Shown in pieces: positions 1 through 33,090 of a stretch of 33,090 nucleotides of DNA. The notes under the pieces are model-generated. The model had not been told where the DNA came from and did no database searches. It saw nothing but the letters and a program-made list of their open reading frames with translations. Position numbers and translations under genes: made by a program. The stretch comes from a virus. The DNA is taken from IMG/VR virus record IMGVR_UViG_3300025640_000036, positions 1-33,090 of that record. One strand, given 5' to 3'. Every line of letters starts with the position of its first letter. The first letter of the stretch is position 1.

Positions 1-136
1 CGTACCCTCAATGGTCACATTGTTGAATGTAGGATTGCGGCCAAATACACCGCCTAATTGTTTAATAGTCATAATAGCCTCATGTATCCGTTGCAATTGT
101 TTTGACAGTGCCATCGCCAAATTTTATTTTAAGATC
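1..136. repeat. Terminal redundancy, left copy (circular contig)
   Basis: These bases are repeated at 32955-33090 with one difference: A at position 10, G at 32964. The simplest reading is that the contig is circular or circularly permuted and was cut inside the end of the tail fibre gene and the start of the S74 fibre gene. The unique length is then about 32,954 bp. A 136-bp physical terminal repeat is possible but less likely, because the repeat lies within coding sequence of two adjacent genes. Confidence 0.9.
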
Positions 137-17812: not shown

Positions 17813-17841
17813 TTGACACGTTTCGCGTTATGCCTTATCTT
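17813..17841 (+). promoter_or_regulatory. Sigma70-like promoter of the first rightward cluster
   Basis: A perfect TTGACA -35 (17813-17818) and TATCTT -10 (17836-17841) are separated by 17 bp. The promoter lies 48 bp upstream of the first gene start at 17890 and drives eight small genes to the terminator at 19867. The gap 17743-17889 also separates the leftward late block, whose promoter would lie in the AT-rich 17770-17800 stretch; I cannot define it. Confidence 0.75.
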
Positions 17842-17868: not shown

Positions 17869-17892
17869 AAAACAGCAAGGAGTTACACCATG
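17869..17892 (+). repeat. Duplicated ribosome-binding leader, copy 1
   Basis: AAAACAGCAAGGAGTTACAC followed by CATG precedes the first gene. A nearly identical stretch (AAAACAGCAAGGAGTAACAC then ATG, 18282-18304) precedes the second gene, immediately after the hammerhead ribozyme. The AAGGAG is the Shine-Dalgarno. The match extends well beyond what a ribosome site requires. Confidence 0.75.
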
Positions 17893-18246
17893 ACAACAAT
17901 CAGCAAGAAAGCAGCGGAAGAAATCTCTAACCTAATGAGGACAATCGTTTGCAATGACACTTTGTGCGATTATCTTCTAAGTGATTCGTTCAAAGAAAAA
18001 CTAGACCCAACCGATAAATCTATATATTGGAAATTACGATACGAATGGGCCGATGCAATCGTCAGACTAGATGACAAGTTCGGCATTCAGCACCCATCGT
18101 TAGAATATGTTTTAGAAAAAATAGATTATCTCGAAGACCAAAAATTTATGGAACGACAAGAAAATGAATGCTGGACAAACTACAACAAAGCGGAAATGTC
18201 TCGAAGCCACGGCGGCCTAATAACCGCCTTCGGGTCTACCAGTTAG
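17890..18246 (+). CDS. Hypothetical protein; 3' end embedded in a hammerhead ribozyme
   Basis: 118 aa, acidic and helical, no recognised domain. The frame is open from 17767, but the promoter lies inside that extension and AAGGAG precedes ATG 17890, so the shorter form is chosen. The last codons (F-G-S-T-S-stop) are also strand III, the cleavage site and loop I of the ribozyme: the predicted scissile bond falls within the TCT serine codon and the TAG stop is in loop I. Cleaved mRNA would therefore lack a stop codon. As first gene of the promoter-proximal cluster it is probably expressed early. Confidence 0.7.
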   Translation: MTTISKKAAEEISNLMRTIVCNDTLCDYLLSDSFKEKLDPTDKSIYWKLRYEWADAIVRLDDKFGIQHPSLEYVLEKIDYLEDQKFMERQENECWTNYNKAEMSRSHGGLITAFGSTS

Positions 18247-18281
18247 GGACTGGTACTGACGAGGCCATAAGGCCGAAACCC
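18232..18281 (+). ncRNA. Type III hammerhead ribozyme
   Basis: All core elements are present in order. Stem III is open: GGGT (18232-18235) pairs with ACCC (18278-18281). The cleavage triplet is GTC (18234-18236), cutting after C18236. Stem I is TACCAG / CTGGTA (18237-18242, 18250-18255), six perfect pairs with loop TTAGGGA. The conserved CTGACGA follows (18256-18262), then stem II GGCC-ATAA-GGCC (18263-18274) and GAAA (18275-18278). Stem III may extend past one mismatch (TT18229-30 with AA18283-84). A separate hairpin, GGCGG/CCGCC at 18211-18228 with CGAA/TTCG below it, abuts and could compete with stem III. The ribozyme lies between the first two genes of the cluster. Confidence 0.92.
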
Positions 18282-18304
18282 AAAACAGCAAGGAGTAACA
18301 CATG
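18282..18304 (+). repeat. Duplicated ribosome-binding leader, copy 2
   Basis: Second copy of the leader seen at 17869-17892, starting one base after the ribozyme. After self-cleavage the downstream mRNA would begin at 18237 and carry this leader with its AAGGAG site free of the upstream coding region. Confidence 0.75.
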
Positions 18305-18562: not shown

Positions 18563-18581
18563 AAACCCATCCTAACACAAC

Positions 18582-18595
18582 GGGCCTTCGGGCCC
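18582..18595 (+). other. GC-rich hairpin with UUCG loop between genes
   Basis: GGGCC-TTCG-GGCCC forms a stable 5-bp hairpin 26 bp before the next start. Only TT follows, so it is at best a weak terminator; it may instead stabilise mRNA ends. Confidence 0.5.
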
Positions 18596-18620
18596 TTAAC
18601 CAATCCGAGGGGATTATATT

Positions 18621-19460: not shown

Positions 19461-19615
19461 AACCAACCCGAACCGAACTGTTAACCGCATGGATGACGTT
19501 AGTTAAAGTGCGCGAGACTTACTGCCATCCAGAGGTCGACCAATACGAACAGACCGTACTGCTAGACGTGCTTAAAATGCTGGACAAACTACAACAAATC
19601 GAGGGCAAGAAATGA
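19457..19615 (+). CDS. Small hypothetical helical protein
   Basis: 52 aa, read directly from the sequence: it starts MKPTRTELLTAWMTLVKVRE and ends LKMLDKLQQIEGKK, with one central Cys-His pair (ETYCHPEVDQYEQ). Predicted as two amphipathic helices. ATGA overlaps at both start and stop show it belongs to the coupled cluster. No function recognised. Confidence 0.6.
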   Translation: MKPTRTELLTAWMTLVKVRETYCHPEVDQYEQTVLLDVLKMLDKLQQIEGKK

Positions 19616-26188: not shown

Positions 26189-26376
26189 TTCCCGATTGGA
26201 TACTATCACTACAGTCTAGTGCTACTTGGGCTCGTCGGTATGAGAACCAAGCCAGCTTTCAGTGGGACGAAGACGTTGTAGAAGAATTGCAAATCATTGC
26301 AGACCGATTAGAAACTTTACTATCTGAACAAAAGGAGAGATACGATGAGTATATGGCAAACACTAAGCTCAATTAA
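26185..26376 (+). CDS. Hypothetical small helical protein
   Basis: 63 aa. Starts with WILSLQSSATWARRYE and continues as one acidic amphipathic helix (WDEDVVEELQIIADRLETLL). ATGA overlap with the previous gene; the annealase start lies inside its last 32 bases. No function recognised; probably works with its acidic helical neighbour. Confidence 0.6.
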   Translation: MIPDWILSLQSSATWARRYENQASFQWDEDVVEELQIIADRLETLLSEQKERYDEYMANTKLN

Positions 26377-26953
26377 TGTAAACGACCACACCGAAAGCAA
26401 AGGCAACTTAACCTACCTATCATGGGCTTGGGCATGGGCTGTCACTAAGCAGCACTACCCAGAGGCTACCTACTCATTCCAAGAGAGTGAGGCCCACACT
26501 GATGGGACAATGACCGTACATTGTACTGTGAGCATTGATGGACTATCGCATGAAATGTGGTTGCCAGTTATGGATCACCGTAACAATGCCGTAGCCAATC
26601 CTAATGCCTTCCAGATCAACACCGCTAAGATGCGATGCTTGACTAAGGGCTTATCAATGCATGGACTGGGTGCCTACATATACGCTGGTGAGGATCTGCC
26701 AGCACCAGAACCAGAGAAGACTTACGAGCAATGGTGTGCAGAAAACAAGGACAGCATCATGGCAATCAAAGTCGGAATAGCAAACGATGATTTCCCATCT
26801 GCCGCTGAAGCATGGTTCGAGTTAAGCAATGAAGTTAAGACTGCACTATGGAAAGCGCCAACCAAAGGCGGATGCTTCACGAAGATTGAACGAGAAATAA
26901 TTAAGTCATCTGACTTTAGAAAGCTGCATTATAACGAAGGAGAGAGTGAGTAA
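26345..26953 (+). CDS. DUF1071 / Sak3-like single-strand annealing protein
   Basis: 202 aa. The N-terminal NLTYLSWAWAWAVTKQHYPEA and the central FQINTAKMRCLTKGLSMHGLG segments are diagnostic of DUF1071 proteins, related to Rad52-like phage annealases (Sak/Redbeta superfamily). The C-terminal third is helical and less conserved. It would anneal complementary single strands during recombination-dependent replication, together with the SSB-like protein next door and NinB/NinG. AAGGAG lies upstream of ATG 26345. Confidence 0.85.
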   Translation: MSIWQTLSSINVNDHTESKGNLTYLSWAWAWAVTKQHYPEATYSFQESEAHTDGTMTVHCTVSIDGLSHEMWLPVMDHRNNAVANPNAFQINTAKMRCLTKGLSMHGLGAYIYAGEDLPAPEPEKTYEQWCAENKDSIMAIKVGIANDDFPSAAEAWFELSNEVKTALWKAPTKGGCFTKIEREIIKSSDFRKLHYNEGESE

Positions 26954-31706: not shown

Positions 31707-33026
31707 TTAAGATTCTAGTTGTGCGACTCGTGCGCGTAATGATTGGATTTCTTTAAGCATCATTGGGACTAGCTTTGCAGGATCGACACTCATCATTTCT
31801 TCGGGGTCTTCTGGAGTTGTAACAGCATCAGGCGCAACCCCTACGAGTTCCTGCGCGATGAAGCCATAATCTTGATGCTCGCCACCAGTCTTCCAGTCAA
31901 ACTTCCGAACCTGAATTGAGTCTATCTTTGTGCCAGAGTCGTCAGAGTCTTCAATGTTTTCTTTTAATCGTTCATCAGAGACAGAGTTATAATTCGTCAC
32001 GTTCGTGCTTGTGATTGTTATACTGCCTGTGGGAGTCGTGTTGTTGTAAAACGCGAATAAAGTGCCTGTCGCAGAGGTTAATCCATCGTTTGTTATCCAA
32101 TAGGCAGAAGTTGCTGTCGTTTTGGAATAAAGACCGTTTGCGCCACCGCCGTAAATTGTCACGCCTTGATCGCCTGCTACAGTAGTACCCACCAGTAGGT
32201 TCTGCGATGAATCGATGGTGGCCGCTAAAGTGTTATCAGTGTAAAACGATTGTGTAGTAACCCCACCACCAGCAGCGCCATGCTTAATGTTCCCGCTGAC
32301 GAATTGTAAAACGTTTCTTGCGGCACCACCTGCATCGTGAAAAGCGACAATCCCGCTGTTAGGCAGGGTTAAGCTGCCGCCCGTAAGCGTTGTTGACGTG
32401 ACACCAACCAATAAATTGCCCAAGGAATCGATACGAAGCCTTTCGGTCGGAGATGTTGACCCGCTGGCAGAGGTTGCAAGCATCATATACCCGCCATCAG
32501 CACCAGTCGTGGTTTGCTCAATCCTAAGCCATCCCAGTACTCCACGGTTGCTTTCGCCAACAAAACGACCACCAGCAGTTGCGAGATCTAGCGATTGTTT
32601 TGACGTGATAAAACCGTTTGATCCAAGCGTGACCACGCCGCCTGTTGGATTTGCCGTGACGGTGCCCGTGGCATCGATGCGCATGCGTTCTGTGCCGTCA
32701 ACCGCAAATCGTATGTTTGACGAAGTGGCCTCATTATTTAAATCTGCATTAAGAATAAGACTTCCTGCGTTATCCATTGAGATAACACCTTCAGTATTAT
32801 TAGTTGTATCAGTCATGTAAAAAGCTGGGGCAGAAGAACTAATATGCAAAGTCCCACTAGGCGTAGTCGTCCCGATTCCCACGGAGCCTAAAACATAAAG
32901 ATTATCTTCAATAGTCAGGTCTGAATTAATATCTATGTCACCGTCAAAGGTTAGCGTACCCTCGATGGTCACATTGTTGAATGTAGGATTGCGGCCAAAT
33001 ACACCGCCTAATTGTTTAATAGTCAT
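31707..33026 (-). CDS. Tail fibre with C-terminal S74 chaperone
   Basis: 439 aa. Begins MTIKQLGGVFGRNPTFNNVT, then a repetitive beta region with recurring TTPSGTLHI, AMRIDATG-like ERMRIDATGTVT and ERLRIDSLGNLLVG units. The last ~90 residues are the Peptidase_S74 intramolecular chaperone (VSDERLKENI, YGFIAQELVGVAPDAV, VPMMLKEIQSLRARVAQL), which trimerises the fibre and cuts itself off; S350 and K355 are the likely catalytic dyad. A longer frame from TTG 33074 is rejected because GAGG lies five bases before ATG 33026, overlapping the stop of the previous fibre gene. Confidence 0.9.
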   Translation of the reverse strand: MTIKQLGGVFGRNPTFNNVTIEGTLTFDGDIDINSDLTIEDNLYVLGSVGIGTTTPSGTLHISSSAPAFYMTDTTNNTEGVISMDNAGSLILNADLNNEATSSNIRFAVDGTERMRIDATGTVTANPTGGVVTLGSNGFITSKQSLDLATAGGRFVGESNRGVLGWLRIEQTTTGADGGYMMLATSASGSTSPTERLRIDSLGNLLVGVTSTTLTGGSLTLPNSGIVAFHDAGGAARNVLQFVSGNIKHGAAGGGVTTQSFYTDNTLAATIDSSQNLLVGTTVAGDQGVTIYGGGANGLYSKTTATSAYWITNDGLTSATGTLFAFYNNTTPTGSITITSTNVTNYNSVSDERLKENIEDSDDSGTKIDSIQVRKFDWKTGGEHQDYGFIAQELVGVAPDAVTTPEDPEEMMSVDPAKLVPMMLKEIQSLRARVAQLES

Positions 33027-33090
33027 AATAGCCTCATGTATCCGTTGCAATTGTTTTGACAGTGCCATCGCCAAATTTTATTTTAAGATC
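32955..33090. repeat. Terminal redundancy, right copy
   Basis: Same sequence as 1-136 except G at 32964 (A at position 10). The difference falls in the S74 fibre coding region, in a GAG/GAA-type codon (minus strand), and may be a population variant or an assembly error. Confidence 0.9.

Follow-up and report, generated by a model that had tools for sequence, protein, structure and literature searches.

Hammerheads between phage genes have been known since 2011, when Perreault et al. described them flanking or lying between genes in prophages and phages, found that the identities of those genes were not constant, and proposed processing into shorter, single-gene messages (PMC3088659). Some of these (pro)phage hammerheads cleave in vitro and in E. 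coli, and in vivo cleavage was reported for tandem prophage hammerheads (PMC3088659). In haloviruses HF1 and HF2, the hammerhead HHphage sits 13 nt upstream of an early-gene start codon, and a halovirus transcript 5' end has been mapped to within 3 nt of the hammerhead site (PMC3088659). RiboJ, an sTRSV-type hammerhead, cleaves to give a standardised leader that is capped by a hairpin and precedes the ribosome-binding site, and it makes expression independent of upstream sequence (PMC6206723). The role of phage and bacterial hammerheads has been open since their discovery, and a review calls that of prokaryotic hammerheads an open question (PMC6155905).

Here, we analyzed a 33,090-nt virus record (IMGVR_UViG_3300025640_000036; its whole length is hereafter the window) that carries a hammerhead between two small genes. 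Like HHphage, it lies just upstream of an early-gene start codon; HHphage, however, is a structural variant located before a helicase gene at the head of a transcript in an archaeal virus, whereas the window ribozyme lies between two exchangeable genes. RiboJ differs in being engineered, 75 nt long, equipped with an added 3' hairpin, and placed behind promoters; here, the capping hairpins would be the ribozyme's own stems I and II. Compared with the hammerheads of Perreault et al., the one described here occurs once, at a fixed locus whose flanking genes are exchanged, is found only behind an extra gene, and in some relatives gives way to type I at this junction. The hammerhead class, the intergenic position in phages, and a proposed processing role (2011) were thus already known; in open-access papers, we found no description of a fixed junction with exchanged genes, of coupling to an inserted gene, of exchange between type III and type I, or of loss with fusion.

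A complete type III hammerhead

Judged by its sequence, an independent covariance model, and the variation in its family, the element is a complete type III hammerhead ribozyme of the established class, with self-cleavage predicted (Table 1). It reads GGGU-C↓UACCAG-UUAGGGA-CUGGUA-CUGACGA-GGCC-AUAA-GGCC-GAA-ACCC (arrow, predicted cut), so that the conserved core CUGANGA ... GAA and the NUH cleavage site (here GUC) are all present, with a loop I of 7 nt and a loop II of 4 nt. When the window was shuffled 12,518 times with its dinucleotides preserved, a motif requiring a perfect core plus three stems, each of 4 bp or more, turned up 10 times, a chance of 0.0008 per window.

The element resembles the type III members of Rfam family RF00008 in having helix III open and stems I and II closed, and in its CUGANGA and GAA core, GUC site, and 50-nt length. 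It differs from them in its short 4-bp stem III and in residing in a DNA phage operon, not a circular RNA. The RF00008 model gave only 22.2 bits (gathering cut-off, 48.5; whole-window E = 1.9), and its alignment took part of loop I as stem III. That register is wrong, because loop I varies in the family while GGGUCUACCAG is constant. As RF00008 was both below threshold and misregistered, a separate covariance model was built from 23 motif-picked type III hammerheads of other viral contigs, the ribozyme's own family being excluded. It matched the window with 54.3 bits (E = 5.8e-15), its sole match in 33 kb. The 23 training sequences were chosen by pairing, so their pair counts carry no independent weight, whereas the score of the window does. 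The strong match to this model suggests that the Rfam miss reflects a poor Rfam model, and that intact phage hammerheads may escape the type III model of Rfam.

A prior sequence-only reading had called a complete type III hammerhead of an established family here, with every core base, three stems (6 bp in stem I, 4 bp in stem II), and a cut after position 18236. All of this held, down to both ends of the element, which the covariance model reproduced exactly, and to the placing of the cut at the GUC site; the Rfam comparison that it had proposed as a check came out against it.

Thermodynamic folding was less clear-cut. The isolated 50-mer had a more stable alternative fold (-18.8 versus -16.0 kcal/mol for the hammerhead), and stem III reached a pairing probability of only ~0.2 in longer context, in programs that leave out the loop-loop tertiary contacts by which natural hammerheads are stabilised. 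The predicted pairing of stem II went from 0.42 to 0.95 when the sequence of the upstream hairpin was included, apparently because CCGCC was then occupied.

Table 1. Positions of features in the window
Feature	Position	Strand	Remarks
Sigma-70-like promoter (TTGACA, 17 nt, TATCTT)	17813-17841	+	weak alone
ORF1, promoter-proximal "A" gene, 118 aa	17890-18246	+	relatives L196-L202
26-nt stretch	18167-18192	+	repeated at 19576-19601, 25/26 identical
Hairpin GGCGG-CCTAATAA-CCGCC	18211-18228	+	directly 5' of ribozyme; fold -9.4 kcal/mol
Type III hammerhead ribozyme	18232-18281	+	sequence, independent covariance model, family variation
Stem III, 4 bp	18232-18235 with 18278-18281	+	open helix
Predicted self-cleavage site	18236..18237 (between C18236 and U18237)	+	core position 17, after GUC; inferred
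Stem I, 6 bp	18237-18242 with 18250-18255	+	loop-closed
Core CUGACGA	18256-18262	+	
Stem II, 4 bp	18263-18266 with 18271-18274	+	loop-closed
Core GAA	18275-18277	+	
Leader and ribosome-binding site AAAACAGCAAGGAGTAACAC	18282-18301	+	between ribozyme and ORF2
ORF2, "B" gene behind ribozyme, 86 aa	18302-18562	+	26 relatives
Sak single-strand annealing protein	26345-26953		PF06378, E 1.2e-46

Genes and junction sequences around the ribozyme

An exact 126-nt direct repeat near the ends of the window (11-136 and 32965-33090) suggests that the record is probably a complete genome of ~33 kb. Its terL matched best an uncultured phage record (47% identity), with 44% identity to Alteromonas phage ZP6, and by this comparison the phage has no close isolate. 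Neither ORF1 nor ORF2 had a Pfam or PHROG match.

The surroundings given in the sequence-only reading needed several amendments. Two small genes do flank the ribozyme, but the stop codon of the first (TAG, 18244-18246) lies inside ribozyme loop I. The consensus promoter said to precede them corresponds to a promoter-like TTGACA-17-TATCTT site, which carries little weight alone, 5.1 such sites being expected in the region. That the ribozyme is not near a packaging gene was half right: terS and terL are immediately upstream, with the start of terL ~0.94 kb from the ribozyme, but they are divergent, on the opposite strand.

A hairpin was usual upstream of the ribozyme in relatives as well, and the stop codon of the A gene often lay in its loop. 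The upstream junctions (24 distinct) folded with a mean of -9.5 kcal/mol, versus -4.9 for random 36-mers of the same contigs, and 20 of the 24 folded below -7 kcal/mol. Downstream, the family shared the leader AAA(A)CAGCAAGGAG, with 13-22 nt in total between ribozyme and start codon (26 nt in L189, whose motif is incomplete). In the window, the leader at 18282-18301 is identical at 19 of 20 positions to 17869-17888, in front of ORF1. In one relative (L007), the promoter sequence of the window stands directly before the ORF2 relative, with neither ORF1 nor ribozyme.

A second junction block, AACACAACGGGCCTTCGGGCCCTTAACCAATCCGAGGGGATTATATTATG, made up of hairpin and leader without a ribozyme, was observed at 18570-18620 of the window; the same block occurred in L217, L218, L230, and L232, between exchanged genes, one junction further downstream.

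The run of ORF1 into the ribozyme was traced to the 26-nt stretch in Table 1. Its second copy forms the end of another, downstream gene, and the copy near the ORF1 end stands in another frame; it is a short patchwork insertion. The stretch holds ~22 extra bases before the window hairpin, which shift the ORF1 frame past its usual stop, while the ORF1 relative in L202 and L172 ends in ..TTAA (stop codon TAA) within the hairpin loop. The overlap is therefore derived, owing to the extra bases and frameshift in this phage, and was rejected as a conserved feature. In the window phage, cleavage before translation would leave the ORF1 mRNA without a stop codon.

The stop codon in loop I invites the alternative that the ribozyme is a regulated switch, its cleavage controlled by ORF1 translation through or up to the hairpin and ribozyme, or by a ligand or ion. 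The A-gene stop codon lies 6-14 nt before the ribozyme in most relatives, within reach of a terminating ribosome, as a switch of this kind could use. Against it, the overlap in the window derives from a frameshift in this phage, the position of the stop codon varies between relatives, and loops I and II have no large conserved aptamer-like insert. We regard a switch as improbable.

Conservation of the ribozyme family

In IMG/VR, a search pattern that fixed stem I and most of the core, but not GGGU, GAA, ACCC, or anything in stem II after the first base, returned 49 loci with the same stem I. A second pattern, which required the same stem II and the same end of stem III but left stem I and the cleavage site unfixed, likewise returned 49 loci, and the two sets largely overlapped. 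The 16 distinct intact variants differed only in loop I, loop II, stem II, and core position N7 (C, U, or A). Stem II carried a compensatory change from G-C to C-G in L165 and L190, and a mismatch at its loop-closing pair in L151 and L161. Between phages whose terL genes were 75-80% identical (DNA), ribozyme stems and core were 99% identical. One copy was found in 14 of the 16 records searched whole, and never more than one; the two records without a type III match were a ribozyme-less relative and a type I carrier. A similarity search of phage isolates gave no match for the locus, and for the ribozyme chance fragments only; bacterial and archaeal genome contigs held no exact match to the pattern of the ribozyme family.

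Alternatively, the ribozyme could be a relic, whether inert or parasitic, or could hitch-hike with A genes as a mobile element. The truncated copies and the many relatives that lack the ribozyme would sit well with this, yet the core is conserved at 75-80% terL identity, type I elements occupy the same junction, and a mobile repeat would not be expected to occur once per record and at a single locus. We consider this account very improbable, and its mobile-repeat form was rejected on the last of these grounds.

A fixed junction with exchanged genes

In terminase-linked relatives, the ribozyme always lay between the first two genes of a small operon that diverges from terS/terL; other surroundings were seen in more distant contigs (L150, L151, L158, L161, L164, L165, L168, and L174). 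Both neighbour genes were exchanged: at least 4 families in the first position (slot A) and 8 in the second (slot B) were combined around the type III element, as delimited by coverage-limited clustering (single linkage had merged unrelated genes). ORF2 relatives themselves were preceded by the ribozyme in some cases and not in others. On these comparisons, the ribozyme keeps its place at the first operon junction while its neighbours are swapped between relatives. The purpose of the ribozyme, left open by the sequence-only reading, is narrowed by this evidence from relatives, which that reading did not include.

Presence and absence were counted with terL as anchor at the 70 loci (window included) that reached far enough: 27 had type III, 5 type I, 3 a truncated element, and 35 none. 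Where an f9 or f6 gene came first, a hammerhead followed in all 24 loci; where a gene of a slot-B family came first, none of 28 loci had one (L235, whose first gene was missed by the ORF finder, was set aside). Common descent and partial redundancy link these loci, so the counts overstate independence and do not stand for independent events. Most ribozyme-less relatives had the promoter leader running straight into a slot-B family gene; an exception was L225/L269, in which an A gene (f21) occurred without the ribozyme.

Type I hammerheads and gene fusions at the same junction

Five relatives carried a type I hammerhead instead, in each case between the A gene and the ribosome-binding site of the B gene. 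Four of them (L252, L253, L256, and L271) followed the form UCUCA-CUGAUGA-stem II-GAA-(ACCC UUCG GGGU or ACGCC GCAA GGCGU), then C or A, the predicted cut, and UGAGA; the fifth (L227) read ACCCA-CUGACGA-GCCUG..CAGGC-GAA-ACGCC GCGA GGCGU-C↓UGGGU. The type I motif scan gave 19 matches in 196 Mb of shuffled sequence, or 0.025 expected in the 261 kb examined, where 5 loci were seen. Rfam matched none of the five, and the element of L256, which lacks the usual G-C pair beside the core, may be weak. Point mutation cannot convert type III into type I, so that replacement or separate acquisition must have occurred; the four similar elements may represent one event and L227 another.

At other loci, the element was lost together with the gene boundary. 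L199, L200, and L201 have a deletion of the 5' half of the ribozyme including the cleavage site, and ORF1 reads in frame across what is left of it to form one gene with its neighbour. L247 has no ribozyme; there, an A-type gene contributes its initial 28 residues to a fusion with ORF2. Where A and B are fused, no intact cutter is left between them, as a functional cutter would require.

A proposed transcript insulator

The ribozyme probably separates the message of the promoter-proximal accessory gene (ORF1) from the rest of the early operon, a RiboJ-like insulation. The proposal builds on the structure, conservation, and fixed position of the element, the exchange of its neighbours, its replacement by type I, and its loss with fusion, from which we infer intracellular cleavage, the chemical nature of the ends, and an effect on stability or translation. 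Co-transcriptional self-cleavage would split the slot A message (ORF1) from the slot B message (ORF2 onwards). After the cut at 18236, the upstream product would end in the hairpin, UUCGGGUC, and a 2',3'-cyclic phosphate, its 3' end being capped by the hairpin at 18211-18228. The downstream product would begin with a 5'-OH and the stem I hairpin (its first 19 nt), followed by the stem II hairpin and, as the ribozyme stands directly before the ribosome-binding site, by the A-rich ribosome-binding leader, ~20 nt before the AUG. As with RiboJ, the B message would receive the same 5' leader whichever A gene precedes. Apparently, the A gene and ribozyme entered together, separating the early promoter from the gene that formerly followed it directly; for this gene, the ribozyme would restore a clean leader.

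Against insulation are the 35 of 70 loci without an intact or truncated element and the A gene without a ribozyme in L225/L269; in the window itself, ORF1 runs into the ribozyme, so that ribosomes could unfold it or ORF1 could lose its stop codon to cleavage. The more stable alternative fold of the 50-mer and the low stem III pairing also count against it. More tentatively, and with slightly less than even confidence, we suggest that self-cleavage at the first early-gene junction is a selected trait, the inserted gene travelling with or acquiring an insulating self-cleaving RNA, for which either topology (type III or type I) fits. If true, the phages of this group would possess natural insulators of transcripts that allow their gene cassettes to be interchanged. 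The phage group constitutes a natural experiment (type III, type I at the same junction, broken and fused, neither gene nor ribozyme) and makes the processing or insulation idea directly testable.

The exchange of neighbours could also be read the other way round, with the block as a homology patch for gene exchange at which Sak annealing recombines the hairpin-ribozyme-leader sequence, the ribozyme being kept as a seam. The same 50-nt block does occur between many different gene pairs, the leader AAAACAGCAAGGAG lies on both sides of ORF1, the phage encodes Sak (Table 1), a candidate driver of gene exchange at the locus, and homology that has diverged still lets Rad52-like recombinases promote phage mosaicism (PMC3945230). 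A seam, however, gives no reason for keeping the stems and catalytic core when N7 and the two loops are free to vary, and does not account for the compensatory stem II change or the type I replacement. At the next junction downstream, hairpin and leader lack a ribozyme, and the neighbours were exchanged too. As the main explanation, it is unlikely. Insulation and a seam can coexist, and since the phage encodes Sak, gene exchange at a conserved seam is plausible as a second role alongside insulation.

Hammerheads in other viral contigs

Type III hammerheads of other viral contigs likewise favoured a place shortly before a gene, in keeping with the proposed insulation: 19 of 38 lay within 30 nt of a ribosome-binding site and start codon (7.8% for random positions), and only 3 of 38 lay inside a long ORF (53% for random positions). 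The type I hammerhead CACTGANGAGCCTG..CAGGCGAAACGCC was common to L227 (= L276) and four other viral contigs, together L276-L280, in different surroundings. Six unrelated viral contigs (L064, L083, L094, L112, L124, and L137) each had two to three type III hammerheads on the same strand, spaced from a few hundred bases to ~2 kb apart, which resemble the clustered prophage hammerheads in the literature.
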